From Haliclystus octoradiatus (taxonomy: Eukaryota; Cnidaria; Staurozoa; Stauromedusae; Haliclystidae), in NCBI GenBank assembly GCA_916610825.1, contig OU744453.1:14005469-14069468 (forward strand): a stretch of DNA of 64,000 nucleotides, in the 5' to 3' direction. Shown here piece after piece: positions 5,902 to 58,255 of the stretch. The notes beneath the pieces were generated by a model that saw only the letters and a list, made by a program, of their open reading frames with translations, had not been told where the DNA came from and did no database searches. A program made the position numbers and the translations under genes. Every line of letters starts with the position of its first letter. Position 1 is the first letter of the stretch.

Positions 5902-5913
5902 CTTCCCCCAAAT
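5902..5913 (-). promoter_or_regulatory. BEL-1 polypurine tract
   Basis: On the minus strand this reads as a G- and A-rich run ending GGGGGAAG directly next to the 3' LTR, where plus-strand cDNA synthesis is primed in LTR retrotransposons. It fixes the element's orientation independently of the coding frame. Confidence 0.75.
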
Positions 5914-6045
5914 TTGAAATATTTATTTCAAATGAAAACAAAATTAATCTATATTCTATATCTTTTTATGGTGAATTTATACTAATTGTCAATGTTCTCA
6001 TTGTCTATAAATCAAATTGTTTTATTTAATTGTAATTTTCATATT

Positions 6046-11792: not shown

Positions 11793-11833
11793 CTTTGTTT
11801 ACCTTTCTAGATTCGACTACAATAGTTCGAAAC

Positions 11834-12107
11834 TGTTTTGTTCTAGTTCAATTTGTCATTTGTGAGAGGCGAGTCGAATACGAAGTAGTAAATAAACATT
11901 AACATAACCAAACAAGTCATATAATTTCAATCACTTTCATAATAATATTCACATTCTAAAAACACGTCTACTTTACATCATTTTGAACGTGATCCTCTGT
12001 GTCATCACAAATTCTCACGCCATATATATCACACCACGATCACACCATGGTCAATCATATTTCTTTATTTAATACAAATTAACATACAACTGATTTATTA
12101 ATTTCCA
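11834..12107 (-). repeat. BEL-1 5' LTR (in element orientation)
   Basis: 274 bp twin of 5628-5901. In element orientation it would hold the promoter. It sits 41 bp upstream of the gag-pol start codon, an unusually short leader. Confidence 0.95.
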
Positions 12108-13393: not shown

Positions 13394-13600
13394 TGTTGTT
13401 TTTGTAAAGAGAGAAGAAGCCAAGTCAAGAATAGTAAATTTAATAAACTTAAACATTAAAGAACAATTTCATTACTAAATAAAAGAAGAACGAATATCAA
13501 AAGAAATATATAAGAGAATTACTTTATTTGGTTGTGTTTGTCTCAGTGTTTATGCTTTATTTATTTACAAGTCAAAACAACAAAGAGAATGTTGTTAACA
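13394..13600 (+). repeat. BEL-2 5' LTR
   Basis: 207 bp, TG...CA. Matches the split 3' LTR with about five differences, so this element is older than BEL-1. It preserves the empty site (ACTTTATTTGG) that the Academ-type element later hit in the 3' LTR. Confidence 0.92.
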
Positions 13601-13888
13601 ATCCTTTAATATGGGTATAAGAAGTTTCAAGTTATTTAAAGTTATGTATATATGTTTAAATTCAAGTTATTCAAGTTATTTAAAGTTATCCAAGTTTTTC
13701 AAGTTTATTTATCATTTTTAATACAATTTACAATATTCGCTTATCAATATATATATATGGAAAGGCAAGATGTTGAAAGACCAATATTCAATTATTGAAT
13801 ACTAACCTACTTTGTATATATATATATAATAAAGTAATTGTGTGGGCAAAACATCAATTTGAGTGCTCAATGCTAAAAGCAGAGCAAT
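13601..13888 (+). other. BEL-2 leader, no gene seen
   Basis: AT-rich sequence with short CAAGTTATTT-type tandem repeats (13628-13700) and AT dinucleotide runs. A primer-binding site cannot be identified confidently. Confidence 0.5.
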
Positions 13889-14080: not shown

Positions 14081-15415
14081 CTACTTGTTATTCTTATAGT
14101 TTCTTAAATAATATTTGTTCTCGTGTCGGCACTTAGAAATGAGTTCCGTTCTTTTATTTTGTAAATTGTCATGTTTATAATAAATTATATGGAATTTCTC
14201 CGTTAGGCATAGGTTACATTTTTTAGTTTTGTTACTATAGGCAGCCGCTGTGGCTAGTATTGACCATTTTATGCTGTAATTGATATGCTTCTCTTTGAGC
14301 TTCCAAATGTGTTTGGATAACTCTGTGCTGTTTGCATATTTCTTTGTTTTGAAGGACATCTTATGTTGGGCTGCGCGCTGCTTGAAAGTGCCTTCCGTCA
14401 AACCGATGTAGTTTTGGCCTACGCTGTCATGTGCCGTTGTGACGTTGGCCTTGTAAACGAGACTTGAGGATAGGCATTTTTTGTCCAATGGGCAATTGTC
14501 TTTGTTGCGGCAGTTGCAAGTCTTTTTAGGTTTAGTGCTGCCATTGTCACTTAGGACTTTATTGTTATGGCTTCTAATTATAGTTTCGACATTAGCCATA
14601 CAGCTGTAGGATACCTTGACATTATTTCTATTAAAAATTTTGTGGAGTCTATGGGCCTTCGGAAAGTATTTGTCAATCATCGCTAAAAATTTCTTTGCAA
14701 TGTTGGTATCCACATTTTGGCTGAACGGCGGGTTAAACCAGATTATGTTCCTTTTTCTGTTAATGGCCGGCGGTGTTGAAGGGCTGCGTTGCTTGTAGGT
14801 GAACTCTGGGTTATGCCCGCTGGATTTCAATGCAGATACGTATGGGCCTTTACAATTATCGAAGACATCCTGATTGATGGATAGATCGGAGATTCTTTGA
14901 CTTACTGCTATCGGTATCTGCTTGATAATGCTGCGGGGATGATTAGATTCTGCGTTAATGTAGGACGGATGGTTGTTTGGTTTTGTGTAGGGCTTGTAAG
15001 ATCCATTACTCAAGTCGAGGGTAACATCTAAAAAATCTATTGTTTTCAAGTTTGTGTGGATAGTAATGCCTAGTCCGTTACTTTTGAAGATTTTCACAAT
15101 ACCTTTTCTAGTTCTTTCCGCTTGTGGTCCTGACGTATTCTTTAATAATGCAATACCGTCATCTCTGTATAGGCCAACGTTTTTTATGCCATACTTTTTC
15201 GCAATTTTTTCTAATAAGAAAAGGCCGACTAGTTCGCAGATTTCAGCCCCATCGTAGCTACCCATCGTAACGTCAAATAAATTACCATTATTTTTCTTCA
15301 TCCAAGCCGTGTTGTTGTCAAATAGCAGTGACTTTCTCGCGTGCATTATAGTTTTTATATCCTCGGTAGTGATGTTAATAAACGCGAGAAAGTCACTGCT
15401 ATTTGACAACAACAC
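14081..15415 (-). CDS. Penelope-like RT (C-terminal part) with GIY-YIG endonuclease, left copy
   Basis: 444 codons, open throughout. The N-terminal residues come from the spacer and arm junction, so the true protein began further upstream in the RT and this copy is truncated. Visible: GSYDGAEICELVGLFLL, the RT catalytic motif YRDDG (about residue 83), and a Cys-rich region (CNCRNKDNC ... C) about 300-320. The GIY-YIG nuclease follows, with the YIG motif in GQNYIGLTEG and a downstream Arg/His (about 340-360). The tail is NKRTELISKCRHENK. In Penelope-like elements the endonuclease nicks target DNA for priming. Without RT motifs before motif C this copy should be inactive. Confidence 0.88.
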   Translation of the reverse strand: MLLSNSSDFLAFINITTEDIKTIMHARKSLLFDNNTAWMKKNNGNLFDVTMGSYDGAEICELVGLFLLEKIAKKYGIKNVGLYRDDGIALLKNTSGPQAERTRKGIVKIFKSNGLGITIHTNLKTIDFLDVTLDLSNGSYKPYTKPNNHPSYINAESNHPRSIIKQIPIAVSQRISDLSINQDVFDNCKGPYVSALKSSGHNPEFTYKQRSPSTPPAINRKRNIIWFNPPFSQNVDTNIAKKFLAMIDKYFPKAHRLHKIFNRNNVKVSYSCMANVETIIRSHNNKVLSDNGSTKPKKTCNCRNKDNCPLDKKCLSSSLVYKANVTTAHDSVGQNYIGLTEGTFKQRAAQHKMSFKTKKYANSTELSKHIWKLKEKHINYSIKWSILATAAAYSNKTKKCNLCLTEKFHIIYYKHDNLQNKRTELISKCRHENKYYLRNYKNNK

Positions 15416-16448
15416 TGCTTGGATGAAGAAAAGTAATGGTAATTTATTTGACGTTACGATGGGTAGCTACGATGGTGCTGAAATCTGCGAACTAGTCGGC
15501 CTTTTCTTATTAGAAAAAATTGCGAAAAAGTATGGCATAAAAAACGTTGGCCTATACAGAGATGACGGTATTGCATTATTAAAGAATACGTCAGGACCAC
15601 AAGCGGAAAGAACTAGAAAAGGTATTGTGAAAATCTTCAAAAGTAACGGACTAGGCATTACTATCCACACAAACTTGAAAACAATAGATTTTTTAGATGT
15701 TACCCTCGACTTGAGTAATGGATCTTACAAGCCCTACACAAAACCAAACAACCATCCGTCCTACATTAACGCAGAATCTAATCATCCCCGGAGCATTATC
15801 AAGCAGATACCGATAGCAGTAAGTCAAAGAATCTCCGATCTATCCATCAATCAGGATGTCTTCGATAATTGTAAAGGCCCATACGTATCTGCATTGAAAT
15901 CCAGCGGGCATAACCCAGAGTTCACCTACAAGCAACGCAGCCCTTCAACAACGCCGGCAATTAACAGAAAAAGGAACATAATCTGGTTTAACCCGCCGTT
16001 TAGCCAAAATGTGGATACCAACATTGCAAAGAAATTTTTAGCGATGATTGACAAATACTTTCCGAAGGCCCATAGACTCCACAAAATTTTTAATAGAAAT
16101 AATGTCAAGGTATCCTACAGCTGTATGGCTAATGTCGAAACTATAATTAGAAGCCATAACAATAAAGTCCTAAGTGACAATGGCAGCACTAAACCTAAAA
16201 AGACTTGCAACTGCCGCAACAAAGACAATTGCCCATTGGACAAAAAATGCCTATCCTCAAGTCTCGTTTACAAGGCCAACGTCACAACGGCACATGACAG
16301 CGTAGGCCAAAACTACATCGGTTTGACGGAAGGCACTTTCAAGCAGCGCGCAGCCCAACATAAGATGTCCTTCAAAACAAAGAAATATGCAAACAGCACA
16401 GAGTTATCCAAACACATTTGGAAGCTCAAAGAGAAGCATATCAATTAA
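15309..16448 (+). pseudogene. Penelope-like RT/GIY-YIG, right copy with early stop
   Basis: Inverted twin of the 14081-15415 frame, differing at few residues. A nonsense change (TAA at 16446-16448, after KEKHIN) ends it about 65 codons short. The remaining frame is still readable to about 16643 and ends with the same NKRTELISKCRH motif. RT motif YRDDG and the YIG motif are intact. Confidence 0.88.
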
Positions 16449-16857: not shown

Positions 16858-18470
16858 TGGCTACTAATGGATCTGGTGTAGACAAAAACCCATTAAAAGT
16901 GAGAAGTGGACATTTGAGTTACTTTTCCAAATTTTATAGTGAAATAAATGAACTTACATCACATGCTAGAAATTTTAACAAAGTACTCGAATTACACCGT
17001 AAAATAATAGAACAATTTGCTAAATGTTGAATAGTGCACAAAGAATATTTATCTCTGATATTTGATAATCAACATCGAGAAATCTTAAATAAAAGTAATG
17101 AAAATGCTATTAAGAATTATAACGAGATTTTGAATCATACCTCAATCTACCTTAATGCAGCTGAAGGAACATCAAGTTCAAAATCGATTACTAAGGAAAA
17201 AGATACAACAACATCATCTAGGAGCTCAAAGTCTAGCAGCAGTGAGTGAAGTCAGAGTGTAGCTGATGCCAAAATAAAATTTCAGGTAGAAAAATTGAAA
17301 CTGCAACAAGCTAAAGAGAAAGAAGAAATGTTAAAAAGCCAGCAAAAGGCTGAGAGAAAAGCAATATTACAGACAGCTGAACATGAACTACAGCAAAGTA
17401 CCCTAGAGGCGAAACTATACGAAGAAGCCTTGGTTGATGAACTCCTTGGTGATGTTGTAGACCAGAATCCAATTCCTGAAGAAGAGTTATTATTTAAAAA
17501 TGAAGTAAGCCTGGACAATAAATTTAAATATTCAATACAAAATGGTACTGTCTTGCCAAATGTCTACACAAATGATCAAACTCAAATTTCAGAACTTTTA
17601 TCACAAATGGTCATATCATCGCAACTTCTAAGTCCAGAAATAATCCCATTTGATGGTGATTCCAAAGAATACACAGCATTTATTACGAATTTTAAAGCTA
17701 ACATTGCCTCAAAAGTTTCAGATTCAACAATGAAGCTAACCTATATCTAATTCAATACTGCACTGGTGAAGCTAGAAAGGTAATAAAAAATTGTATACTA
17801 TTGCCACCAAAGGAAAGATATACGAAAGCCTTATGTCTGCTAAAAATAAATTTTGGACAAAATCATGTAATTGCTCGGTCTTATATTGATAGTTTGATAA
17901 AGGGTTCAAACGTTAAACAAAATGATATTGATAGTCTTGTGAAGCTGTCGAGAGAAATGAGTGATTGTGCTATTGTGTTTGAGCAATTAAGTTTCACAAG
18001 TGATCTTAACTCAAGCGAAACAATATGACGCATCGTCTCAAGATTACCATGTTCTTTTCAAGCCAAGTGGGTAGACAAAGCTGTAGAAATCATTAACAGA
18101 AAGAAGAGAGAACCAAATTTCAACGATATATGCAAGAAAGCAATGAACAAAGCAAGTGGTCATTTTAACAAAACACCTCAAAATGTATCTACCCTGGCTA
18201 CTCAATGGTGCGATGATGACGACAATAATCCAAGTCCAGGATCAAATCAAGATAACAATAGTTTTATGAAATGTGAATTTTGCAACATGTTAAATCATAG
18301 TATTGACAAATGTTGGAAATTTAAACAAAATGTGCTTTCCGAAAGACTAACATTTATAAAAGATAATAGATTATGTTTCCGTTGTCTTAAAAGGGGTCAC
18401 ATGTCAAAAGAATGTAATGTTAATTGTGAAAGGTGCAACCGAAATCATAACACATTATTACACGATGACA
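16858..18470 (+). pseudogene. BEL-2 gag
   Basis: Decayed gag in several frames from ATG at 16858. It begins as a helical N-terminus, then has stops at about 17027 and 17247, a Lys/Glu/Gln-rich coiled coil (17290-17430), and a DUF1759-like part (PFDGDSKEYTAFITNFKANI, near 17650). Zinc knuckles lie at 18268-18460 (CEFCNMLNHSIDKC and CFRCLKRGHMSKEC, then CERCNRNHNTLLH). Frame breaks occur near 17750 and 18028. A hAT element interrupts it at 18473 just after the knuckles. Confidence 0.85.
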
Positions 18471-18472
18471 GT

Positions 18473-20047
18473 CAGGCGCGGATAGAGGGTAAGTCTAAAA
18501 AGTCCCAAGACTTACCCTTTTTCTCTTGCAAATTCATTTTATTTACTAAATTTTGGATTGAAATGTTTCGTGACTTTATTCGACTTTTCTAGCTGCACGC
18601 AGTCCAGACACCACATTTTACTTGTTGTTCATTGGTTTGTTTGGTATTGAGGTTTCATATACACAAAAGGACTTACCCTGAAGCCTCGATTACATTTTTG
18701 CAAATTTTGAATATTTTTCTGATGTATTCATTGGTCTGCCGAAATTTTTCTTGCGTGTGATTGGAGCGGCTCGTAGAGGAGCTTCAAAAGGACTTACCCC
18801 GAGACTTGTGAAATGGCCTCGCAGACCGTTGTCTGACGTAGGCAGAGCAATAGTTAGCAGAGTTTTGACCGTGATTTTTGAGACTTACCCACCATGCCTC
18901 GATTTAGTCAGAGACTTCTGCGCCTTATCGATTTCTTGTTGGACAAGTCTGAGAAAGTCTGGAGCTTTAACTACAAATCTTCATGTTGCTTGTGGCACAC
19001 ACATTTTGCTACGAAGTTAAATTTGGCTGGATATACCCTGCACATATGAAAGGCTGGTAATTTGGACAATATCAACAACAGTCAGCAACGTCTTATGGCG
19101 AAGTTGTCTTCTTTTTCGCTATTTTCTTTGCTAAAATCTTATTTTATAATGTTTTTATCGTAAATTCGGAAATCTACATGCTGAAAGATATTTACATTTA
19201 CATTTACTGTTTACATTTCTGCTAATTACTAAGAATCCAAGAAGGAGCTAGGCGCTGCTTTAAGGTACGTATTATTTTGTTTGGTTATGTTGTTAATTTA
19301 TTGTTAAAGGTTCTGACACGGATTAGAATGGCTATGTAAAGTTTGTGTTTGTTTATTCATACAGCCTTAGACTGAGCATGGTGGTTTATATGTTCAATTA
19401 ACATGTACATGATAATGTGCAAATAGGGGAAGGCAGACCGTCAAAGCCTTGCGAATTGAAATATCGTGCTGTTTGTCTTTTTTTAATACACATATTCTTC
19501 TATATGTTAAAGGTCCGAGATTTCGAGAAAGGACTTGATTATGCTGAATAACGGAGGTTAATATTTGATACATATAACTAAGCTCACATGCCGTCAATGT
19601 TGAGTCTCTCAGTCTCATTCTCACACATGGTTCACGTCAACATAGTTTTCTTTTTGTAATTTCAGGTATACCAATTATACATGTAAAAAATTTAGACTGT
19701 AATAGCTTAGCTACATTATCAATATACTCTGAAGACTGTATTAAATCAAAGCCTTGTATAATCTTAATCTTGACCTTATAAAAAAATATTTGAAAAATAT
19801 ACGAAATCGAAAATCATCAATCAAAAAATTGAAATGTGTTTTGTCTTGAATGACCAGTGTTTTAGTAATGCTTCAATATAGTAAAGTTGAGACCAAACTG
19901 CTTTTAGAGAGCTCCTAAGAGCTTGAAATTACAAAAAAATTTCCGGGGGACATGCCCCCGCACTCCCCTAGATGGACGGGGCTTCGCCCCTTTATTGTCC
20001 GATTTCAGTTTCGAGACTCACCCTATTTTAAAACTGATCCGCCCCTG
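18473..20047. mobile_element. Non-autonomous hAT-type element, 1575 bp
   Basis: 8 bp target-site duplication ATGACAGT at 18465-18472 and 20048-20055. Termini CAGG(C/G)GCGGAT in inverted orientation. The right end holds a GC-rich subterminal block (CCGGGGGACATGCCCCCG, then GGGGCTTCGCCCC) shared with the element at 30470-32868, so the two are related. The interior has repeats of AGGACTTACCC and one GATTGGAGCGG, but no transposase. It splits BEL-2 between gag and protease. Confidence 0.88.
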
Positions 20048-20055
20048 ATGACAGT

Positions 20056-22814
20056 AGAAGTGATAATTATACATCAAAGCAAAACAACAAACCCAATGAA
20101 GCATCAGTATCAGTAAATTCAACTGCAATTAAGAAATCAAAGATTTGTTTAGGTATTCTACCGATTATTGTCAAAGGTAATGGGATTTTAATAAACACGT
20201 ATGCCTTAATAGATTCTGGGTCAAACACTACATTATGTAAACGAGAACTGTTTTATAAATTGATATTAAAGGAGAAAAAACTAACTTTAACTTACAAACA
20301 ATAATAGTAACTCAGTTGCATGTCAACTAAAAGCTTCAATCAAAATTACTAACATTGATTCTACAGAAGAAGTAGAACTTAATGTGTTAACTGTCAACAA
20401 AATGCCGATATCAACAGTATTCCTGATTCAGCAGATGTAAAAAATTGGGAACATTTGAAAGGGATAGATGTACCTAATATAGATGCAAATGATGTAAGCA
20501 TTCTCATTGGTACCGATTGCCCAGAAATGTTTTGGTCATTAGATGAAAAGCGTGGAAGTAGACAGTAGCCGGTAGCGATACAAACCTTACTTGGATGGAT
20601 AATCCTTGGTCCAGTTAATCAAATGTCATATACAACTGAAGAAAATTGTGAAGTTAACTTTATAAAAACAAATCTACTGCAAGAGCAGCTGAATAGACAA
20701 TGGGATGCTGATTTTAAAGATTTGGCTGAAGTTCAAACGGATGAAATGTCAGAAGATGACAAAAAAGCTTTAGAGATAATGAATAGCTCTATTCAATTAG
20801 TTAATGGTAAATATAAATTATCTATTCCATGGGAGATTGATCCCACTGATCTACCAAACAACAAATTAATGGCAGAAAAAAAGATTAAAATATTTAAAGC
20901 AAAAGTTTATGGACCATTCATTACACATCAACAATATAATGACACAGTTGAAAAATATATAAATGATGGACATGCAAAGCTATTACAAGATGATAATGAT
21001 ATCAAAGAGAGTGCTCAATGGTATTTACCACATCATCCTGTGTCCAAGAAAACAAATCCAAGCAAATGTAGAGTTGTGTTTGATTGTGCAGCTCAGGGCC
21101 CAAACATGTTTAATAACTGGTCAGGAATTCTGATCAGATTTAGGAAAGAAGCTGTAGCACTTGTTGCTGACATTGAAGCAATGTTTCATCAATGTTTTGT
21201 ATCTGATGAAGACCAAGATTTCCTCAAATTTCTATGATGGGAAAATGGAAATTTCAGCAAAACTACAAGAACTTATGCTATGCTGGTACACTTGTTTGGT
21301 GCAAGTTCAAGTCCAAGTATTGCATCATTCTGCATGAAAAAAAACAGCCGATGAAAATGCAACAAAATACTCTCAAAGTGCCATCAACACATTGAGACGT
21401 TCGTTTTACGTAGACGATATGTTAAATTTGAGCAAATCAACATCAGAAGTAGAGCTAGAGATAAAACAATTGTTTGCATATGAAGCTGTGAAAGATATGA
21501 GTGAATTTTTGGAGACATTTTCTTCTTACACACGTCTCTTAAAATCAGTAGCATGGCTGAAAAAATTCTGCAATTATTTGAAAATTAAACACAAAAAAAG
21601 AGATCAAATAGTCCAGAATAAGAGTTTGCAAGTTCAAGACATCATCGAAGCAGAACGGAGTGTTATTCTATACATATAGCGTCAAGAACTAAACGAGGAA
21701 TTAGAGTTGTTGACTAAAAACAAACCAGTAAAGCAATCAAGTCAAACAAGTTGTTTAAACCCTTTTATTGAAAACGGGACAATAAAAGTAGGAATATTAT
21801 GTTTAGAAAGGTTACAGTACTATCAAGCGTGTCATTAACTCCTGCTTTCAATGTAATCGCCAAAGAAAAAAAAACTTTCAACAGCAGATGGCAAATTTAC
21901 CAAAAGAAAGAACCATAGTAAATCATCTACCATTTACTCACAGCGGAATAGACTATTTTGGCCCAATGTTAGTAAAGCATGGTAGAGGAACAGTTGAAAG
22001 ATATTGATGTCTTTTCACATGTCTCGTTACTAGAGCAGTACACCTTGAAATTTCTCATTCTTTAGAAAGAAACTCTTTTTTAATGGCATTGCACAGATTC
22101 ATGGCAAGGAGAGGAAATCCAAGTGAAGTCTGATTGGACAATGGAACCATCATTTCAGCTGCTGAAAAGGAGCTTAAAGAAAGTGTCCAAAAGTTAAACA
22201 CGAAGAAAGTCCATAACGAAATGCTACTGAAAGCAATAGAATGACATTTTATTCCTTCTTATTCGGCTCATTGGGGTGGTGTTTGGGAGCGCCTAGTTAA
22301 AACGGTGAAGGTAGTTATAATATCCCTTGTTAACAAGCAGCTGTTAACAGATGAAGAGTTGCTTTCATTCATGTGTGAAGTGGAGAAAATACTCAACGAT
22401 CGGCCTATTACAAAACTAAGTCTAGATTCAAATGATAAATTGCCATTAACTCCAAGTCGTCTACTTTTATTGAGAAGAAACATGTGCACATCACCAGCAA
22501 ATGATAACCTTATTCGGCGTAGATGGGAAACAATACAAAAAATTGCAAATAAGTTCTATCAGAGATTTGTAACAGAGTATCTACCATTGCTTCAAGAACG
22601 ACACAAATGGCAAATTATTAAAGAATGCATACATGTCAATGATGTTGTGCTAGTGATGAATGAGGTGTTACCCAGAGGTAAATGGCCACTTGGTCTTGTA
22701 GTAGAAGTAAATACGGGTAGAGATGGATTAATCAGAGCAGCAAAGGTGAAGATTGGCAACACATTAAAAGTACGCCCAATTACAAAGCTAGTGATATTGG
22801 AACATCACTATTGA
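20056..22814 (+). pseudogene. BEL-2 pol: protease, RT, integrase, DUF5641-like
   Basis: Visible in order: protease with IDSGSNTTL near 20215; the end of the DUF1758-type region (LLGWIILGPV near 20590); RT from 20623 (WYLPHHPV, CRVVFDCAA, DIEAMFHQ) with stop at 21235; the catalytic YVDDML near 21408; the second half of the integrase zinc motif near 21850; catalytic integrase residues in GIDYFGP (21945), LDNGT (22136) and WGGVWERLVK (22270); and DUF5641-like WPLGLVVEV to RPITKLVIL at the end. The RNase H region and parts of the RT palm are deleted and several stops occur, so it is dead. Confidence 0.87.
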
Positions 22815-23119
22815 TACGATAATACGCATTTGAGTTTATAATTTATGTTTATACTTATTGATATCAAAGTAATAAAGCTTCTTCATCTGCAGAACTTTAT
22901 CGAGGGTAGTGTTAAAAGTATAAACGTTTATTTGTGTTTAGATTGTTTGCGTTTTGTCAAGTGTTATTTTCAGGCTTAATGGTTCTCTTGTTTTGTAATT
23001 GTATGGTTTACTGTTAGTGGTGTATTGAAAGTGTTATTTTAAAAGGCCTAGTGATTCTGTTGTTTATAATTGTAAGGTGTATTGCGTAAATTCTTCCTGT
23101 CCTGTAGAAGGGAAAATAT
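22815..23119 (+). other. BEL-2 3' untranslated region and polypurine tract
   Basis: Non-coding T-rich stretch with two diverged copies of a GTTATTTTCAGGCTTAATGG / GTTATTTTAAAAGGCCTAG-type unit, ending in a purine tract (about 23107-23117) right before the 3' LTR. Confidence 0.55.
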
Positions 23120-23252
23120 TGTGTTTTTTGTAAAGAGAGAAGAAGCCAAGTCAAGAATAGTAAATTTAATAAACTCAAACATTAAAGAACAATTTAATTA
23201 CTAAATAAAAGAAGAACGAATATCAAAAGAAATATATAAGAGAATTACTTTA
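23120..23252 (+). repeat. BEL-2 3' LTR, first 133 bp
   Basis: Matches 13394-13526. Broken after ACTTTA by the TIR transposon; the last three bases, TTA, are its target site. Confidence 0.92.
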
Positions 23253-26200
23253 TAGGCGGTAACGAAAATACCAAAATATTGAGCTCTTGCAGTGCAAACA
23301 CTTGGATCTACACAAACTATACGCAATATACCATTTTCAAGTGCACTGATTACGAATCCAAACTCTTCCCACGCCCTCAACCCGTATCTTCTGAGTAAAA
23401 TCGTAAATAAAATAAGGCAAAATCGTATTCTGCTTTCGTTTGAAAGCCGCCATTTTTGAACGAAAGCAGACTGGGGATAATAGACTTTTGGCGCATTTTC
23501 AAAACACGCAGTGGTCAAAAATCAAAGATTAGCATGGAGTTTTGCTGTTTTCTATCAAGAAAACCTTAGTAAGATGGATGAAACGATAATATACAGTACA
23601 TTTTTTTTTCATTTCCACACACTTTAGTATATATTGTACAAGAAAAGCTTAAAAGACTTGATATGACTTCGAACACCCTCTAAATGATTCCTTCAGAAAG
23701 CCGAAGATGGAGCAGGTAAGGGTACGCTTTGTTTACTTATTTGTTTACTATTTTATTGTTTTATTGATATAGAAAAACTGGAATAATGTTCTATTTCATA
23801 TACAAACTAATGCTCATATTGATTATAGCGGTAACATAAAATAACATTTAAAAGCTTTAGTTGAGGGATATGCCATATTCCCAAACGTTTTATTTCATTT
23901 TATGAATTGACCTTAAAATCCTGTTCTAAACTAGCCTAAGTGTTTATAAGTTACTATTGTTTATTCATCGACGTCTTCGTCACTTGAATCACTATCATCA
24001 ACACAATGACCTGTATCAGAATTACTGTTTTCATTGTCATTGACATCTTCAGTGGTTAAATTTTCACATGTGCTACATTTACATAGGCTTGTGCAGCTAA
24101 GGCCTGCTTTTTTACAGCTACATCTGTTTGTAGCACATCCAGTTTTGCAGCCACAATTCACAAAACATAGTAAGCTGTCCGGTGCTGGATTTTGTGAAAG
24201 CCATTTTATGTCTATCAAATTGTTTTCTATTTTCCAACCATGATCTATAACTGATGGGGAATTTATTATTTTACTAGTTGCACGGCGCCAAATGTACGCC
24301 TGGTAATTGCTTCGTTTGATGTGCAGCTCCAAAGAATCTCTATTTGGGGGGATAACTTCCTCTGAAAATCTGCCTGACTTGAATATGATAAATCGAAGCA
24401 GATTAACAGAGCTGTCGTCGATGTTACCCCCATATAATAAACAAACAAATTTTTCCAAATCAGACACTAGTTGGATGGATGGGCAAACTTCTCTACCTAG
24501 GTCAGAAAATGCAGAGAGGCTGGATTCATTTTCCTTTAAAATTTTTAAGGCGGTCTTTTTACCTTTGCCATAAAACGCACTTGTGCTATCGCAACCTATA
24601 AAATAAAAAAGCAAAATAGAATTCACTAAACTAATCTTAATCACAACAAGTTTTTTAAATATCTGAATGTTTTAAGAAGCTCATTACCTGTGGATACATG
24701 GAATCCAAGGAGTGACTGGCACCAGCTGATTCCCCAATGACTGGTAATGGTGTTTATAGATATTATTCTGCTTTTTTCACCAGCTCCAGTAGACAAAAAT
24801 AGTTTACAGCTAAATTCACTGCAAGAAGCAATTAAAATGATAAGGACATCAGTGTCAGGGCTTTGTATGATAACATTTTTTGCATGTGAGCTTGCATGCA
24901 GAGCATGGAGTACCAGCCTTGTATTTGATTTGGGTTTAATATTTTAATCTTTTGTTGACCTGATGCTGCTCTCTTTGCTCGTTCTTGTGATTTGATACTT
25001 ACCTGAGGGTAGCAGTCTGCCACAAAGTCAACACGAAAAGCATTGCTACTAGTACTAATCTTTGTAAAATTGAACGTGCTAAGTCGTAAAATGTCAATTC
25101 TGCGATTTTCAACTTCTGTAAAAATGCCATAGCATCAATTATAACAGCACAATCTCCGTAAACTTGATCAACATGGATATCCGGTGTATTTTGTTCAATT
25201 TCGTTCATGAGCTTGGATTTTTGTGTCTTCATTAACATGCCAGTTGCTGTTGCAATTGGCATTGGGTATGGTCGAAGAGAATAACTTAAAACTTCCTGCA
25301 AATCTATATCTCTTGTTGATGCTAATAACAGGAGCCTTGCAAACATGTCTTTGGTGTTTTTGAGAGCAATTATTTCACCTTTAGAAGTTCTCAGGTTAAC
25401 AGATTTGTACATGGATTGAAATGTTTTTACTGAAGACCTTGTGATAGTTGCATACAAATCAGGATTTTCAATTAATAGATTATCCTTTGTGAAACTCAGT
25501 AACTTTTTTTCACCATTTTGTGCAAGGTTTGATAATGATATTTCTACATCTTGAGAAGCAACCTCTCCATTGCAAATGTTAACCAAAGATGACGTTTCAA
25601 GAGTAAATGGGTTAGTCATGGAGTTGATAGTATCAATTAATGCATGCACAGTGCTTTCATCCTTGAATATTCTGGACCGATCAAGATCTTTTCGATTTCT
25701 GTAAATAATTAAAAATGAATAAAAATTGCTTGTATTTGCTGAAATGCTCTCTTTGGAATTTCATCCTAAAAGCAAATATTATTTCATGACTCGATGTAAA
25801 TTGTATACCTTTTAACGGTGTTTGAACCTGTTAAATTCCAGCACTGCTGTGTAATTGCTGCTCTATCTGCTTGAGATTAAATCCATTTGAAAACGGCATG
25901 TCTATTTCTTGATATTCCTACAAGTCCACCTAAACAGAAGGTTGTGGAAATTACATTTCAGAGTAATGTACTGTTTCTTTTGTGTTTCTATGATATCAAA
26001 CCTACCTTTGGTTTTGCAGTCACGGTTCATTGTTTGCTCAATGGTTTGATCACATGGAATAGCTGAAAATCCATACTTTTGCTGACGTTGGACAGTCCAG
26101 TTCTTTGCAACAAGATCAAAAAATTCTGAATATGACAAAAATGTATGAGAGTAATATATAGTCTTGAGGTCACATGGAATCCTAGGAAATCAACCTTTTA

Positions 26201-29200
26201 AAATAGTTGGACTAACCTTGATCTGTGTTGCGCAAGGAATCCATTTCAAGCCAGTAGCACAATGCATACCTGGAATAGTTCGTACGGTCAGAAATGAAAA
26301 ACCATGGTAACATTAAACGAACTCCTGAGAGATGCATTTCCCAGTTAGATGTGCGTGTTGCACGAATCAACATCATCAACAACTCTATCATGTCAATATA
26401 CTGAGACCAATAATGAAATGTACTATGTTTAAGGGACATCTCCTTGACAAATTCCATGTACCTGTAAAAACAGAGTCATTGTTGTTTTTTATTGTTTCTA
26501 TGTCACTGAACTTTGTATGCCTAAAATGATCCAAGATTTTAAATGTTTTAAATGTACCTTTCATAAATTTTACCAACCACACTACCATTGCTGTATGTAT
26601 CTGAGGTCTTAGCATGATATGTTGCTTTTGCTGTTTCGATGACTGCATTCACGTTTTCTTGTTCGTCAAATGGAAGGGAATCTAAAAATGCTTGGAACCG
26701 AAGGCGTTCAAGAGCTTCATACATCAATTTGTGTGTCCGTACACCTCTGTTGTAATGTTTTCCAGACATCACACCACGGACAGAACCAGCCGCAACGGCT
26801 TCTGCTTCAATAAGTATATCCTGTTAGAATCAAAAGAAAATTATGTACATTAGATGTGCACACTTAATGATCGGATTTAAATTTTCAGAGTCGAGTCTTA
26901 CTTACCTGCAAACCACCGTCCTGGAACAATTTGGAAATACCACTCATAAATGACATTATCATGTGAAAATCTCCTAAGTGTAACACCAAATTGTCGTTGA
27001 ACTCTGGAATTTTCCACCTAAAACGAATTTTGTTACACTTTCATGCATCCTTATTAACAAATTATGTGGGATTGATTCAACATACAAAAACATATTATAA
27101 TTTATAGAGTATTACTGACCTTATATGCTGTGCTTTGCAATAAACTCCTTCATCAAATACCACAACTGTTTTTTTCAACTCCAATTCATAGGCCATTTCC
27201 AGGCAACGTTTTAATACATCATAGACAGTCTGAATTTCAGTGACTGGCGCATTTATAACAGGAAGGTAAGTAATTTTGGAAGTATGATTTGGATAATTAG
27301 CAGTTTTGGTATTGAAACCTGTCCAACCTGGTAATAGCTCTTCACACAAAGCATGATTTAACTTGCACAAGATGTATACAAAATTATTTTTTAAAGGTGA
27401 AAGCTTTTCTTTACTGCAATTTTCATAACTAGTCTTGATATCTTCAAATGATTGATTTATTTTAGGGGAAACCCTTTTTCCTAGCACAAATGTGGATAGC
27501 TGAGGCGATGGTAGATTGACCTTTTTAAGCTTTTTGCTGAAGCGAATTGGTTCAATATTTTCCTCTTTATTCTTTGTTAGTCTTTGAATGCTGATACCAT
27601 TTGCTACATGCGTAGACCCAGCCCCACTTAAAGTTTGCTCATTGAAATCCGCATTATCATAGACAAACGTAGTAAATACTCCTTTTTCTAGACCATTTGG
27701 GATATCACCTTGACATTTAATAGCTTTTATAGTTAGCGCTGTTTCCAAATCCTTTACTGTTGTTTTTGAAACACAATGGCCAAACTTGTACAGCATCTCA
27801 ATCACTTTATTTGAACCTGATATCTGACGTATTGCAATTGCTAGACATAGTGCCTTGCGAGTTTGATTTCTCCCACGTGATGATATATAAACAATATCTT
27901 CAATTACTGACAGGATTTGTATTTTTATTTTTTCAGGCACCTTTACCTTTTCATCAAAGTTTGGATCCTCAGAAAATCCCATAATCCATGCAAAAAAATT
28001 GTAGAGCAATGCAGGAATGCTTTCATTTATTGCATGTTGTGAAAAATCATCTGCTGTTGGTGGCCATATGTCGGCCATGCCTTGGTAAGATTTAATGCAA
28101 TGACGTAATGTCATAGCTATATTGAAAATTGGTATTTTCATGCAATGTTCAACTTCAGTCGACTCATGCTTCAAGTCAATATGCTCTAAGTCAATATTCA
28201 TCCTCAAATTCCTCTGTACTGCTAATTTCATCACTATCGTCTAGTTTTGAATCTGCTTCATCTGTTATGGCATCAACCACCTCTCCTGTTGTCAATTCAT
28301 CAATAAATACTATCTCGCTTTTTGATCTTCTAAATGGTTTATGGAAAATTAAGTTTTCGTAGTTATCTTTTAGACGTAGATTCAAACGACATGACTGATA
28401 TGAACTTGCATCAAAATTGCCAATTCGATCAACATATTCTATAAATATCTGAAGCAGGGTTTTGAGGAACATCGCTTGCTTTTCTCGTATTAATTTGATT
28501 TCAATTATTACTTTGCAGAATGTTCTGAATGGTTTTTCATATGGAGAAAGTTTATTTCCTTTGCTATCCCTGCTAGCACGTGTCAAGAACCGAATATACT
28601 TTTGGTAGCAATTTCTATGGTACCGGACCTTTATAGCAACACAGTCGTAGCCCCGTATTTGACGTAAAATATTTTCATCATCTTTTTCCTGGGCAGCATC
28701 ACGCAGCAGACCAGCATCAAAAGTCTCTGCTAGAGATAATTTTTGTGAAACTCTCTTCTTGTTTTTCTATAATAAAAATAATTCACTTATCAGTACTACA
28801 TTACTTTTAAAATATTATTACTATACAAAACGATTGATGTAATTATATAGAATAGTATACTCACATGATCAGTTACCATACGTTTTTTTCGTTTGCATAT
28901 GATGCATATTTCAGGTAATAAATATTTGTTCCTTTTAGTCCCATCTGTTCAGCATAAATTTCTAGGTTTCAGCCCGCCTAATGACCTAGTGACCCTTTTC
29001 TTCTTTTCTGCTGGGCTGCTGGTAGCTGACACAACTGTTGGATGGTTTGGTTGCTTACTTGCCGTGTTTCCAGAAGGTGAACGTGCTCTCCGAAGCTTGG
29101 ATTTGTCAGTAAAATTTCGATAACACCTCATATGATAAAATAAACTACCATCTGCAGGTGCAGTGCTTTTTTCATTAGTAACCTCTGGCACAGTTTGGAA

Positions 29201-29876
29201 TGACATACTGGCAATTTTTGTTGAGGCATGATCTTTCAACATCCATTCCTGTCTTCTACAATAGAATGTTTCCAGTGTGGCTGCGGTGAACTGTATAAGA
29301 TCCCCATCTACACCATCATAATGAATAAGGCACTTTTGTTTTCCTTTGAATTGGTCCATCACCAAGAAGTTATATTATATGTTCACAAATCACAACATAA
29401 TTTTCGTTGAAAAACGATCAATTTCGCTGCATGCTTCCACATTTCAAAATTGTGGATAAAATATGCTTGAAATATGTGAAATGAGGTTAGATGATTGATC
29501 CTGTCGCTTTATTTTGCAATCGGTACACTTTTAACTGATTTATAATGTGTTTTTGATTATCTATTATTATGTTGTTTTGTTTTACGATATCATTTGTATC
29601 GCGTTGCTGTGGAAACTAATGTCTACCATTATGATTTTTGCATTAAAAAGAGGCTGCAAGCGTAAATGGCTTCCACAACGAAGCGGATTCAAAGAGATTA
29701 ATGTACCGTGTTTAACAGTGGATATATCAAAAGATACGCCGGGCAGGTTTGGGAACTTTATGAATTCTGGACTTGTATAGGGTATTCAACAATAATCCGA
29801 GATGTTTGAGTAGATCCAAGGTTTGCGTCACGAGGTGCTTGTTTTAGCAATATTAGAATATTCGCGTTACGGCCTA
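23253..29876 (-). mobile_element. 6.6 kb DNA transposon of probable AcademX type
   Basis: Termini are inverted repeats starting TAGGCGGTAACG (left) and TAGGCCGTAACG (right, reverse strand), with weaker similarity for about 30 bp (AATATTG shared). The target-site duplication is TTA (23250-23252 and 29877-29879). The insertion is proven by the host: joining the LTR pieces on either side rebuilds the 207 bp LTR seen intact at 13394-13600. The minus strand carries one nine-exon gene. A 3 bp duplication plus a transposase with an XPG-like nuclease and a Cys cluster matches what I know of the Academ superfamily, AcademX lineage. The name is inference. Confidence 0.88.
23961..29365 (-). pseudogene. 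Nine-exon transposase gene: zinc motifs, probable DDE core, XPG/FEN1-like nuclease, Cys cluster
   Basis: GT-AG boundaries in consistent phase give exons 29365-28865, 28766-27120, 27017-26906, 26820-26558, 26461-26217, 26125-26006, 25929-25809, 25698-24688 and 24595-23961 (about 1550 codons). Exons 1-2 have CIICKRKK and two YHxxCY motifs. Candidate catalytic acids are FDEGVYCKA (end of exon 2), GDFHM (exon 3) and RTHKLMYEAL (exon 4). Exons 5-6 read MLPWFF, NYSRY and DQTIEQTMNRD. Exon 8 has SIKSQER, LHALHA and SPDTDVLI, and exon 9 GCDSTSAFYGKGKKTAL, resembling FEN1/XPG nuclease motifs. The end has nine Cys in about 30 residues and an acidic tail. Lesions: in-frame TGA at 28949-28951, frameshift near 28195, in-frame TAA in exon 7 near 25885, frameshift near 25075, and a shift with probable deletion near 24935 that removes the acidic EAD-type motif expected there. 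Confidence 0.85.
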
Positions 29877-29879
29877 TTA

Positions 29880-29953
29880 TTTGGTTGTGTTTGTCTCAGT
29901 GTTTATGCTTTATTTATTTACAAGTCATAACAACAAAGAGAATGTTGTTAACA
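29880..29953 (+). repeat. BEL-2 3' LTR, last 74 bp
   Basis: Matches 13527-13600 with one or two differences and ends GTTGTTAACA like the 5' LTR. It follows the TTA duplication of the Academ-type element. Confidence 0.92.
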
Positions 29954-30469
29954 ACCCCCATACTAGGAACGGCCCTGAGGGTATAATGGGATAATTCCAA
30001 ACAATTCTATTGGCATAAATGGTTGATAGTCTTGATCATAGTATCGTATCATGAGCTGCGATAGAATTGGAAGGGGGTGGCATCATCAAACGCTTTGTAA
30101 CTGACATGATTTATCGAGTTTTGTACGGAGAAGTTTGATATCAAAAATTTATCAAGAAATTTGGGGTTTTGATTAGTTTGTTTCTAGTTTGCATTGACGG
30201 CACTAAAGTAAATGTTTTACCATGCATTTCTGCATACCCTCTTTGCTCAGTGAAATAAAACGAGTTAGTAGTCGGAAAACATTAGGAAATTTAACGATTT
30301 GTCGGAGAGTAAAATGAGTGGCTGTTTATTGCCATGTTAAAGAAGTTTTGTAAAATTGTTGATTCAAACATTTAACAAGTTAGGACTAATATAATGTAGC
30401 TGAAATGTCACTTCAAACTTGTGACTTTGAGAGCTAGGAGTTAGGTTTAATACGTTAAATAATAATAAC
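29954..30469. other. No gene seen
   Basis: Unremarkable intergenic sequence ending in a short AAT run and the hAT target site ATAATAAC (30462-30469). Confidence 0.6.
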
Positions 30470-30699
30470 CAGGGGCGGATCTAGGGGGGTGCAAAAGGAG
30501 CGCTTGCACCCCTTCATAATTTTCGAAATGACGTAAATACTATTTCAGTAGAAACCGAAAGAAAGCTAAAGTTTTCATTTTAAGCGAAAATTCGAGATAG
30601 GAGATCTGTTTTGTTTTTGGTAATCCTTTTATGAAAGATTCTAATCTTGTTTCATCCAAAGACGTGAATGTCTGACGAATCATTTTTATCAAACCTTTT

Positions 30700-31016
30700 G
30701 ATTGGAGCGGTTTTCATCAAATGCACCCCATCATATGCAAATCAGTTCGTCTTAATGCAAAAGAAGCCTTGAAACTCTGTCTACTGATTGGCGCGGCTTG
30801 GTAACTTCAAATGCACCCAATCATATGCAAATGAGCAAGCTGGATACAAAAGAAACAGGACTTTTCTGCCTCGTGATTGGCGCGGATAAGATCACTTGCA
30901 CCCCCTCATATGCAAATGAGTTCGCTTCAAACTATACACGTGATTAAATTTTACTTATTTCTGTATTCTGATTGGAGCGGTTTTGCAACATCAAATGCAC
31001 CCCCTCATATGCAAAT
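30700..31016 (+). promoter_or_regulatory. Four tandem CCAAT-box plus octamer cassettes
   Basis: Four units about 86-93 bp apart, each made of GATTGG(A/C)GCGG (an inverted CCAAT box) at about 30700, 30786, 30875 and 30970, followed about 25-35 bp later by TGCACCC and TCATATGCAAAT. ATGCAAAT is the canonical POU/Oct octamer. Spacing and order are kept in all four, and they end about 130 bp before an ATG. The motifs are seen; promoter function is inferred. Confidence 0.6.
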
Positions 31017-31144
31017 TAGCTTCATCCGGGACATATCAAAATAATCTCAACCAGGAAAGAAACTGAAATCCAGATTAATCGGATTTTCTTGTCAGTACAA
31101 CCACACTTTGGTGTTCTCAAACCATTCCAAATCGAGAAATCATC

Positions 31145-31318
31145 ATGGCGGACTTTCAACTAACATTGGAGCAAGCTATTTTAGCACTTTCTGATGAGAA
31201 TGAACAGGACCTGAAAGTTGTTTATGATGAAATTATGTGTGAAATGCGTTTTCTTTCTTCTGATGAACATTACGACTTGATAGATGATATAGGAATAGAA
31301 ACGCAGAAATATATATAG
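31145..31318 (+). CDS. 57-residue acidic ORF in the hAT element
   Basis: Starts ATGGCGGACTTTC in a fair Kozak context (ATCATGG) and ends TAG. The product begins MADFQLTLEQAILALSDENE and is acidic and probably helical. No family recognised. It lies downstream of the CCAAT/octamer cassettes, so it could be a first coding exon of a lost transposase or of a captured host gene. GT sites after the stop were not conclusive. Confidence 0.35.
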   Translation: MADFQLTLEQAILALSDENEQDLKVVYDEIMCEMRFLSSDEHYDLIDDIGIETQKYI

Positions 31319-31404
31319 CCTACCAAAGTCGTTGGAAAGCTGTGAAAGCAAGGATACGCCACATTTTGCTTTAAGGAATGAATTATGAAATGATATTTCA
31401 TGGA

Positions 31405-35456: not shown

Positions 35457-36065
<609 letters not shown>

Positions 36066-36071: not shown

Positions 36072-39000
36072 TTACATTTTTCTTCTCATTTTTATTTCTG
36101 TCTTTGATAATGAGCGTTCATAGGTAGTTATACTTAGCCAATTTATACCTTTTGCATGTGCTGTTTCTCCATACTTTCCATTTAAATTTACAACATGGCA
36201 ATCATCGTACCACCATGCACCAGTGAATATAACAGCACAATTTGAATGAAAACTATCATTATCCTTATCTTTTGTAGTGAACATGTCGCCTCTGTGACGA
36301 GCCAAATTGTTAACAGCAACATTACCTTGAACCAAAAAATTATGAAACAATGAAATGTAATTTCATAAAATGTGATATGAATACATGCGCACACTTTATA
36401 TTTATCAGACTTGTTCAACAATTGAATGCTTACTCGATATACATAGAATAACTTCTATACATTGTAAAATTCGAAAAATGAATGCTTTTCTATCCCCATA
36501 CTTTTCATGATCAGGGGTTTGACCGTGAATCATAATAAATACGCTGATGTGATTTTCAAGGCTCGCGGAGAATCCTGCTGTTTTAGTTCTTCAGCATTCA
36601 GTCTATGCCGTTTACTTCTTTTCAGACTATCTATATCATAACGACAAATCCAAATTTCCGATAAAATTCACGATTTCATTTGAACGATATTCATATATCT
36701 AGGAAATATTATAGGAACAAGCGGTTACTTGCAAGCAAAATATATCCCTTATAGAAGTTTGCATATACATACGAGGATATGTATATTTTTGAGCTGTTAA
36801 GGTCTGCTGTATGGCAAATAATTTCCGTATCTGAATGGTAAATTTATTAGGCTTTTTGATTGGCTAAGACACCGGAGAGAAATGTATTCATTCAAAACAA
36901 AATATGATATTTAAAGTAAAAACAAGTCAAGATATTGAATTTCTCGGGATATTTTCTTTGACCAGTTGATATCAATATATCATTAACTAATACTCAATCA
37001 CAGCGCAGTAGGTTCGAGGGGAGTAAACAGCCAACAATTTGCCAAAATATATCCAAAGGTGATCATCACTTGAAGCTAACACAGAGACATCACCGCAAGA
37101 GAGATTTACGAAACACCACTGAATTTAGTCCAGATTGCGCTATTGTCTAGACACAAACAGGAAACCAAAGTGAAAATTAGTCCTTGGAAGACAAGGTTGA
37201 ACATAAGTCTGTTTCGTTTCGTGGTGATATGAGCTATATATAATGGCGCAAAAAATTATCCATGTTTTATGATAAAATAATTTTTAATAGAACTATTCAA
37301 TGAATATGTATACAAGATCAAGTCCTAAATAATATGGTTTCGAAATGAGTTTTTTACAAAATCTTCAATTCTGTTGAATTCAATTGGATATGACAATTAA
37401 AACGCATTTTAAATGACTTAAGTAAAAAAGCCGATCTATCTCGAGTAGAGATATAAATATAAACAATATAGATATCCAAATATAAGAAGTATAAATATCC
37501 TATTTGAACATAAAAACTGATAAGAAATACTGAAGTTACAAGAATTGATCCTAGATTCGAATTTTAATTTACCGTTTACTCCAGTGTAATCTAGTCTGTA
37601 GTTGTCTGTCTCGTCTGAAATCGTGGCTCCGTAGTATTCCATATAGTAATGTTTATCTCCATCCCATAAATCAAATCGGAGTGTTGTTTCTCCACCTTCA
37701 GTAAGTTTATGAGCTGCATCCAATCCAAGCCAAAACTCCCCACAAATATCACCGAATCCATTTTTATAAGAATTCCAATCACGATAAAAATCTATAGTGC
37801 CATCAAACCGTCTTTGAAACAAAGTCCAACCTAATGCGGTAGAAGTAAAACATATATTTACGTTAGAAAATATTATGCCATATGTTAATAAGTCGAGATA
37901 ACATATAAGATGCCCGATAAGCTGTCATAATTGACTATATTATGTTTGCCTCATATGAATAAGTTTCTACCTTCGATGATTAGACTGAACTATGTTGTCC
38001 CCTCTAGGTGTATATCAAAGTCTTATAGCAGATGATGATAACCTTCACGACATGAAATATCATTAGATTCTCAATACCAAAAACAGTTTTATATCCGCTT
38101 CTGGTGGTTCGCGCCACATAGATAGTGATAGCTTAACAACTAAGACTACCAACGTTCATTTTGTAACAATTATGTAAGGCGTAAGAGGGACTGCACATTC
38201 CTATAATGCTACAAAAAACTAAGAAATGTTTATTTTTTCATTTCTTATGAGCATATTCAAATTTGCTGTGGAAGTTCATTTATTGCCTTTCAGAACTTCA
38301 GAATTCGAAGTTTGCTATTTAATTTTTATATATTTAATCACAACATTTCGGTTGCAACTTGCAATTATTTTGAAAGAGACAAAAGGATTCCATAAGGTCA
38401 AAGATATTTTGATTTCTTTTATAGAAATTTCAATTGATCAATTATCTTGCTTTATTGTGTTAGGATTATCGATTATAAATGTACACATAGGATCATAAAA
38501 ATACGTTTTTTATAATATAAATTAGTGTACTTGAAAATGGTTGTAAGTTGTTACAAAGCGTTGTATTTAGATCCCAGGTTAACTAAATATACCTGATGTT
38601 ACCAATTATTTTTACTGTTAAAATCAAAACAGGAAAATCCATGTGCTTAAATCAAGAAAAAATTTTCTTGAAATAAGAATAAATGTACTTGTCCACATAG
38701 GAAGCAAATATTCCTACCCTAGAACAAATTTGCTTGTTATATTTTCTTATTTTAAGCACAAATTTACTTGACATTCAGTGTTCCCTTTACGTCTGCGTGT
38801 AGGCTCATTAGCGTCATAGCGATTTTTAGACTTTACGAATATTATAAAGTGCCTATAGAAAGCTTCCCAATATTTTCCATGTCAGAGACATTGTAGAATT
38901 ATCCCGAATTGGGTTCGAATAAATTATTTTCTGACGTATTGATTTGTTTATAAGAAACATGCATTGTTTAATATAAAATCTATACACATAGCACATAATT

Positions 39001-42000
39001 GGAATTTCAGCTAATCATTAAATTTTATCAACTTAGCATAATTGGAATTTCAGCTAATTATTGAATTTTTTCAAAATAAATCATATTTTCTATTTCACAT
39101 AAGCTAAACTAACTACCATGAGTAATTTTGTCAAATAATATGGAGAAGCTTTGAATTTATTAGTAATTAGCAGTGTGAATTATCGTGTTGATATTAACTG
39201 AATCGATACCCTTAACATAATTGGAATTTCAAGTAATCATTAAATTTTTTCAACATCAATCATATTATCTATTTCACCTAGGCTAAACTAACTACCATAA
39301 GCAATTTCGCTGAATGATGTTGAGAATTTTTGAATTTATTAGCAAATAGCATTGTGAATTATCGTGTTGATATTAACAAAATCAGTACCTTAGCATAATA
39401 GGAATTTCAGCTAATTATTTAATTTTTTCAAAATAAATCATATTTTCTATTTCACATAAGCGAAACTAACTACCATGAGTAATTTTGTCAAATAATATTG
39501 AGAAGCTTTGAATTTATTAGAAAATAGCAGTTTGAACTATTGTGTTGATATTAACTGAATTGATACCCTTAACATAGTTGGAATTTCAGCTAATCATTAA
39601 ATTTTTTCAACATCAATCATATTATCTATTTCACATAGGCTAAACTAACTGCAATAAGCAGTTTCGCTGAATAATGTTGAGAAGCTTTGAATTTATTAGC
39701 AATTAGCATAAATTATCGCGATGATATTAACAAAATCAGTACCCTTACCATAATTGAATTCCAGCTAATTATTGAATTTTTCCAAAATAAATCATATTAT
39801 CTATTTCACATAAGCTAAACTAACTGCCATGAGTAATTTTTACAAACTATATTGAGAATTTTTGAATTTATTAGCAAGTAGCATTGTGAATTATCGTGTT
39901 GATATTTAAAAAATCAGTACCATTAGCATAATTGGAATTTCAGATAATTATTGAATATTTTCAAAATAAATCACATTTTCTATTTCACATAAGCTAAACT
40001 AACTGCCATGAGTAATTTTGTCAAATAATATTGAGAAGCTTTGAATTTATTAGCAATTAGCAGTGTGAATTATCGTGTTGATATTAACTGAATCGATACC
40101 CTTAACATAATTGGAATTTCAAGTAATCATTAAATTTTTTCAACATCAATCATATTATCTATTTCACCTAGGCTAAACTAACTACCATACGCAATTTCGC
40201 TGAATAATGTTGAGAATTTTTGAATTTATTAGCAAATAGCATTGTGAATTATCGTGTTGATATTAACAAATTCAGTACCTTAGCATAATAGGAAATTCAG
40301 CTAATTGTTTAATTTTTTCAAAATAAATCATATTTTCTATTTCACATAAGCTAAACTAACTACCATGAGTAATTTTGTCAAATAATATTGAGAAGCTTTA
40401 GAAAATAGCAGTTGTAACTATTGTGTTGATATTAACTGAATTGATACCCTTGACATAATTGGAATTTCAGCTAATCATTAAATTTTTTCAACATCAATCA
40501 TATTATCTACTTCACATAGGCTAAACTAACTACAATAAGCAGTTTCGCTGAATAATGTTGAGAAGCTTTGAATTTATTAGCAATTAGCATTGTGAATTAT
40601 CGCGATGATATTAACAAAATCAGTATCCTTACCATAATTGAATTCCAGCTAATTATTGAATTTTTCCAAAATAAATCATATTTTCTATTTCACATAAGCT
40701 AAACTAACTACCATGAGTAATTTTGTCAAATAATATGGAGAAGCTTTGAATTTATTAGTAATTAGCAGTGTGAATTATTGTGTTGATATTAACTGAATCG
40801 ATACCCTTAACATAATTGGAATTTCAAGTAATCATTAAATTTTTTCAACATCAATCATATTATCTATTTCACCTAGGCTAAACTAACTACCATACGCAAT
40901 TTCGCTGAATAATGTTGAGAATTTTTGAATTTATTAGCAAATAGCATTGTGAATTATCGTGTTGATATTAACAAATTCAGTACCTTAGCATAATAGGAAA
41001 TTCAGCTAATTGTTTAATTTTTTCAAAATAAATCATATTTTCTATTTCACATAAGCTAAACTAACTACCATGAGTAATTTTGTCAAATAATATTGAGAAG
41101 CTTTAGAAAATAGCAGTTGTAACTATTGTGTTGATATTAACTGAATTGATACCCTTGACATAATTGGAATTTCAGCTAATCATTAAATTTTTTCAACATC
41201 AATCATATCATCTATTTCACCTAGGCTAAACTAACTACCATAAGCAATTTCGCTGAATAATGTTTAGAATTTTTGAATTTATTAGCAAATAGCATTGTGA
41301 ATTATCGTGTTGATATTAACAAGATCAGTACCTTAGCATAATAGGAATTTCAGCTAATTATTTAATTTTTTCAAAATAAATCATATTTTCTATTTCACAT
41401 AAGCGAAACTAAGGCCCTGTTTACAAGGAGGGCGAGTTACCCGGGTAGGCGAGTTACTCGCCTTACCGAGTTAAAATGTGTTGTGTGTTTACAAGGGTCA
41501 CCTGAGTAACCCGCCTACCCGAGTTAAATAATTTGAAGCCAATCTAAGCATGCGCGCTGAAATGGAACGATTAGAGAACAAAAGATGTCTACAGCGGAAA
41601 CGTTCGAAACAATAGAAAATTAAAGCTACCATTTTTAATTTTTTAACCCGCCTACCCGAGTTACTCGCCTATATCCGTTTACAAGTCAAAAAGTGACAGA
41701 AAGTTGTCTCGGGTAGGCGAGTTACCCGATCTGCCAAGGCGAGTAACTCGGGTAGGCGAGTTACTCGGGTGGGCGAGACAACTTTCTCACTTTGCTTGTA
41801 AACAGAACGCGCATAAACAATAGACCCGGGTAACTCGCCAACCCGAGTAACTCGCCTACCCGAGTAACTCGCCCTCCTTGTAAACAGGGCCTAACTACCA
41901 TAAGTAATTTTGTCAAATAATATTGAGAAGCTTTGAATTTATTAGAAAATAGCAGTTTGAACTATTGTGTTGATATTAACTGAATTGATACCCTTAACAT

Positions 42001-58112: not shown

Positions 58113-58255
58113 ACTTAAACTATGTTTGATGTATAAATTTTCGAACTCAACGTACGAGAAAACACGGTAATCACACTACAAAATCAAGCTGCGAGTGAAC
58201 CAGCATGGCGGCCAACAAAATATTTTCACAGAATTGTGACGTAGGTGAAAACACT

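Follow-up and report, generated by a model that had tools for sequence, protein, structure and literature searches.

What kind of unit occupies positions 23253-29876 of the window (the whole 64,000-nucleotide stretch of Haliclystus octoradiatus DNA analysed here), where a spliced minus-strand gene lies between short inverted ends, and is that unit still intact? A host gene, a transposon of one or another superfamily, and a functional or a decayed copy all have to be considered. The 6624-bp segment, oriented on the minus strand, is best explained as a cut-and-paste DNA transposon of AcademX type that has become defective, a reading to which we assign a probability of about 0.85. The element adds a new but defective copy to an already known kind of transposon, and its interest rests on its relatives and their introns more than on the window copy.

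An insertion fixed to the base by its empty site

The two terminal inverted repeats (TIRs) of the element, TAGGCGGTAACG from 23253 (23253-23264, plus strand) and CGTTACGGCCTA up to 29876 (29865-29876; TAGGCCGTAACG in the minus-strand reading), pair at 11 of 12 positions. Taken together, these ends (TAGGCSGTAACG) are bordered by TTA at each side, at 23250-23252 on the left and at 29877-29879 on the right, as the preliminary description of the sequence had reported. Further inside, a subterminal inverted repeat at 23301-23317 (plus strand) pairs at 94% with its partner at 29804-29820 (minus strand); the two are a possible binding site for the transposase. Because comparable pairs are about as common in shuffled sequence, the ends and the TTA repeats alone are weak evidence, and we dropped them as the only proof of an element: the window holds 59 pairs of 12-bp inverted ends with at least 11 matching positions, the same flanking 3-mer and a spacing of 1-12 kb, compared with 34, 52 and 38 in its three mononucleotide-shuffled versions. 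Genome-wide, the right-end pattern with up to two mismatches occurs 18 times versus 17 in the control, which is chance level; with no or one mismatch there are five informative matches, four of them copies known otherwise and the fifth at C4:7605907.

The insertion is fixed by its empty site. At 13380-13601 (plus strand) the window carries a paralogue of the target without interruption and with no element inside, and it is identical at 214 of 222 positions (96%) to the flanks of the element joined with a single TTA. The insertion at 23253-29876 with a 3-bp duplication is therefore certain and, as had been claimed from the sequence, solved to the base. More copies of this repeat, which are partial, span the insertion point elsewhere in the 262-Mb host genome. 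Judged from its position, the 222-bp repeat is plausibly the long terminal repeat (LTR) of BEL-type remains at 17250-22814; flanks matching such an LTR were looked for and none was seen.

A search of the host assembly (261.9 Mb in 33 contigs) for copies with these ends, which the preliminary description had proposed, recovered several. The sole copy found above 99% identity lies 88 kb downstream (L011; G000:C10:14115581-14125199) and is 99.83% identical over window positions 21753-31378, both flanks included. Because the identity spans both flanks, we ruled out L011 as a second insertion; it is a duplicate of the entire locus, either a recent segmental duplication or an uncollapsed haplotype, a point missing from that description. 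The repeat of the empty site is also duplicated, at the same spacing as the L011 pair. The independent copies are partial. L013 (96% identical) retains the right end and most of the gene, and L016 is a 55-bp right end; L012 corresponds to the left 1.5 kb (90%) and L014 to the left part (90-91%), both with an altered left end, and L015 covers 151 bp with no end.

Exon structure, decay and relatives of the window copy

Nine exons make up the minus-strand gene; the eight introns between them are GT-AG and measure 76-110 nt. Exon 1 (28865-29359) encodes N-terminal Cys/His motifs (FYHMRCY and CIIC), and exon 2 (27120-28766) encodes a YHxxCY motif, the first Asp of the core in YDNADF (27638-27667) and the second in FDEGVY (27134-27163). 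Exon 3 (26906-27017) carries the GxFH-type motif, GDFHM, at 26954-26977, and beyond exons 4 (26558-26820) and 5 (26217-26461), exon 6 (26006-26125) contains the DQTIEQ motif (26022-26060), which holds a candidate third catalytic acid. Exon 7 (25809-25929) is followed by exon 8 (24688-25698) with XPG/EXO1-type motifs, namely VIIDAMAF at 25119-25145, VADCYPQVSIKSQER at 24979-25032 and SPDTDV at 24833-24871. The last exon (23961-24595) includes GCDSTSAFYGKGKKTAL at 24546-24593, the C-terminal Cys cluster at 24075-24155 and the stop codon. The comparative support for this model is strong and suggests that it holds for all nine exons and eight introns: L013 retains GT and AG at eight of eight introns, and in the sister family of L029 seven of the eight intron positions and phases recur, the missing one being intron 4, between exons 4 and 5.

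The preliminary description had placed the nine exons in consistent phase, which is correct for the splice sites and fails for the reading frame, where stops, frameshifts and a deletion had been overlooked. Stop codons interrupt exon 1 (TGA within 28940-28960; the homologous exon of L029 is stop-free) and exon 7 (TAA within 25871-25891). Compared with L013, exon 2 has a net loss of 17 bp at 28170-28193, and exon 8 lacks 10 bp at 25045 as well as about 220 bp at 24924; frameshifts result in both exons. The larger deletion takes out the (E/D)-A-D of the nuclease, with two active-site acids that are kept by L013 and by all eight relatives compared. Divergence of the window copy from L013 is 2.8% at first, 1.6% at second and 2.4% at third codon positions, and 2.7% in the introns; as the codon positions diverge about as much as the introns, strong coding constraint is not visible. 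The gene of the window copy is thus dead, a fossil. The whole protein is beyond its coding capacity, and the copy could move only in trans.

The family to which this fossil belongs is widespread in the host. At least 153 matches to its last exon, its own included, were obtained genome-wide from the 150 of 262 candidates that were scored, and several dispersed sets of them have identical scores. Seven distinct relatives have a single open frame of 1424-1542 aa (L034 and L036 are cut at the edge of the stretch examined), and L028 is 99.9% identical to one of them. The sister family of L029 and L030 shares with the window element seven introns, a TAG-starting TIR, the 3-bp duplication and the domain order, but it is 7.2 kb long and the spliced product of L029 is open at 1611 aa. 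L029 and L030 are 99.7% identical, have the ends TAGACCGCGACAC and differ in their flanks, with duplications of TAG and TAC, respectively; a third copy of this family is flanked by AAA (AAAA fits too). The single-frame family of L032 has the ends TAGTAGGGGAGCC and duplications of TTT and CAC. A 3-bp duplication was found in six of six insertions with both ends read, which represent three families, and TAG...CTA termini are common to the three; for L023, the second end was not found within the sequence piece examined. Outside the host, exon 2 had no relatives in prokaryote contigs and exon 9 none in viral contigs, as expected.

Protein domains and probable kinship to AcademX

The open-frame relatives encode a single polypeptide that is roughly 1500-1600 aa long. 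In it, N-terminal Cys/His motifs are followed by a core in which three acids and a GxFH-type motif are conserved, then by a nuclease of the XPG/EXO1 family and a Cys-rich tail. The nuclease has the clearest homology. A profile of seven relatives, compared with 177,635 PDB sequences, gave five matches at E up to 10, all of them Exonuclease 1, the best at E 3.9e-5 with the acids in register, whereas a nuclease-only profile was weaker (EXO1 at E 0.0049). Seven acids of the nuclease, which we take to be the FEN1/EXO1 active site, are conserved in eight of eight relatives (as D or E at one position); not all of them are intact in the window copy. EXO1, a member of the XPG/FEN1 family, is a repair enzyme, whereas the nuclease described here is joined to a transposase-like core. 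In the tail, eight Cys columns are invariant across seven of seven relatives, and its match to Pfam TCR falls below the cut-off. Both the XPG-type motifs and the Cys cluster that had been noticed initially are present in the window copy.

The core region gave no match in the PDB profile search. Of the two folds for which a profile check had been suggested, XPG/FEN1 and RNase H, only the former was therefore recovered. An RNase H-type DDE domain is a putative reading of its conserved residues: Asp occupies four places in all eight relatives, two of them within DNxD; both the G and the H of the GxFH-type motif are likewise present in 8/8, and the Glu of DxxxE in 7/8. The preliminary description had composed the DDE core from FDEGVY, GDFHM and HKLMYEAL, of which the first two agree with this conservation, but just two of eight relatives keep the Glu of HKLMYEAL, which was rejected as a catalytic acid. 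Better candidates are the first D of YDNADF (8/8), the D of FDEGVY (8/8) and, from exon 6, the Glu of DQTIEQ (7/8). In a 1529-aa relative (L033, 346-4932), Lys replaces this proposed catalytic Glu (DLTIKQ), which is present in the other seven; despite the Lys in L033, the genome has three places at which 1529-aa open frames are listed.

AcademX elements carry an XPG-type nuclease and a Cys-rich finger in the transposase polypeptide. The element at 23253-29876 resembles them in its 12-bp TIRs (11 positions matching), its 3-bp duplication, and an XPG-family nuclease and Cys-rich tail joined to the core in one transposase polypeptide, and its many host relatives agree. The AcademX identity first proposed is thus well supported by this set of features, the comparison with known AcademX elements being one of described characters. 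Its differences from AcademX are the eight introns in the family of the element and the defects of the window copy. For target-site duplications, PMC10045372 gives 3 or 4 bp in AcademX and 9 or 10 bp in AcademH, and ties this difference to the presence of a nuclease versus a helicase. Unlike AcademH, which carries a helicase, the element has a 3-bp duplication and gave no helicase match in a Pfam scan of eight minus-strand ORFs (exons 1, 2, 4, 5, 8 and 9); its plus-strand ORFs do not exceed 88 aa. That the group is rarely described, as had been stated, is too strong, because curated consensus sequences of 100 autonomous Academ elements are listed in one study of bivalves (PMC10294476).

A link to AcademH is suggested by the Pfam family DUF6589, which matched two relatives weakly, both under the cut-off (E 0.0018 and 0.055). 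When the core was compared by hhalign to two DUF6589 proteins, the DxxxE motif aligned, also weakly (probability 9.9%, E 0.0032). Of the 55 DUF6589 matches in the genome, 12 are situated 1213-1382 bp upstream, on the same strand, of one of the last-exon matches (150 listed of the 153), and several of these 12 are closely similar copies from a single family. Within 5 kb, no such match was located downstream or on the opposite strand; in 200 random shifts the count averaged 0.08 and never exceeded 1. At the two strongest DUF6589 loci, which are the two that were scanned, a Helicase_C frame adjoins, as expected for AcademH. DUF6589 may thus be the AcademH transposase, in which case the core of our element would share a weak similarity with AcademH. 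At these two loci (L042, 1411-2514 and 3-1139; L043, 1297-2487 and 1-1008) the DUF6589 frame (E 3.4e-28 and 2.2e-23) is convergent to the Helicase_C frame, and such units are dispersed, several with identical scores. Because the boundaries of two copies (on C5 and C1) were read and showed no clear TIR or duplication, we refer to the unit only as AcademH-like. No use of the name DUF6589 was found in the open-access papers searched.

Other explanations of the locus differ in how much of this evidence they accommodate. The element could belong to another or unnamed superfamily in which an EXO1-like nuclease was fused independently of Academ, and some room for this is left by a kinship judged from shared features and by the lack of any curated Pfam family (seven relatives) or NCBIfam family (three of the seven) reaching the cut-off on the proteins. 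We regard it as improbable, as the XPG-type nuclease, the Cys-rich tail and the 3-bp duplication make up the AcademX set. The near-constant distance of 12 of the 55 DUF6589 matches upstream of a last-exon match, the Helicase_C frames beside the two strongest DUF6589 loci and the AcademX duplication length of 3-4 bp given in PMC10045372 likewise argue against it.

Whether the segment is an element at all, and whether this copy could still function, can be answered with more confidence. A host gene of several exons that encodes XPG-like and zinc motifs and is bounded by coincidental ends and TTA repeats would account for eight GT-AG introns, a large number compared with the single-frame relatives, and such ends with a 3-bp repeat are about as frequent in the window as by chance. 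However, the entire unit is missing to the base at the empty site, last-exon matches recur in dispersed sets with identical scores, L029 and L030 sit in different flanks, each with its own duplication, and the coding sequence is broken in the window copy; the empty site and the sister insertions combined refute a host gene, which can hardly be entertained. It is also highly improbable that the window copy is functional, with its stops and frameshifts bypassed by extra introns or recoding. Its eight splice-site pairs do look usable, but by-eye comparison shows neither a stop nor an intron at the site of the exon-1 stop in L029, the exon-8 deletion removes acids kept in every relative compared, and the similar divergence of codon positions and introns speaks against strong coding constraint. 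A defective AcademX copy therefore remains the preferred reading.

Intron history and a proposed transposition mechanism

The preliminary description considered the introns unusually many for a transposon, and in comparison with relatives from the same genome they are: seven relatives are single-frame, and among 21 last-exon rows the last intron occurs in one clade. These rows were chosen from the 153 matches, leaving out L013 and copies such as L023, L028 and L030, and the tree was rooted at the midpoint. A single branch (support 90/92) sets the eight rows with intron 8 apart from the rest, and the presence of this intron requires a single change in 94% of 200 bootstrap trees. The other 13 rows are labelled as being without intron 8, among them L055, whose match begins inside the exon. 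Because the single-frame relatives are on the other side of the branch, gain of intron 8 within AcademX appears to be the simpler reading, with loss as the alternative. Our searches of an open-access collection that does not include the original AcademH paper or Repbase turned up no description of AcademX clades with introns.

On this basis, we propose how an intact relative might transpose. The zinc-type parts of the protein would bind the TAG-starting ends, and the core, as a putative DDE domain, would cut and join the 3' ends over a 3-bp stagger. The nuclease may then process the other strand, or 5' flaps left at the donor or the target. An analogy for two nucleases is offered by Tn7, in which TnsB and TnsA split the strand roles. 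We can speculate that AcademX encodes a one-polypeptide, two-nuclease transposase, in which a DDE-type core acts on one strand and the fused EXO1/FEN1-type domain on the other, and that one clade gained at least seven introns while moving as DNA; this combined proposal is tentative and, taken as a whole, somewhat unlikely.

The host genome nevertheless offers suitable material for such questions. Several AcademX families in it have open frames and near-identical copies; some bear introns and others do not, and ends and duplications have been solved. These families could be used to probe the role of the nuclease in transposition, and the intron-bearing clade is a tractable case for how transposons gain introns.

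The window also contains other repeats and one possible host exon. A minus-strand BEL/Pao retrotransposon at 5628-12107 has terminal repeats that are 98.9% identical and an open frame of 1534 aa, and two similar frames in opposite orientation at 14081-16448, with no Pfam match, are Penelope-like by eye. Positions 39032-43033 and 35457-36065 hold a satellite array with a 179-bp unit, arranged in two blocks, and a run of (ATA)203. At 56643-58175, a minus-strand frame of 510 aa with THAP and DDE_Tnp_4 domains is PIF/Harbinger-like. Finally, a minus-strand Fibrinogen_C exon at 37436-37924 possibly belongs to a host gene.
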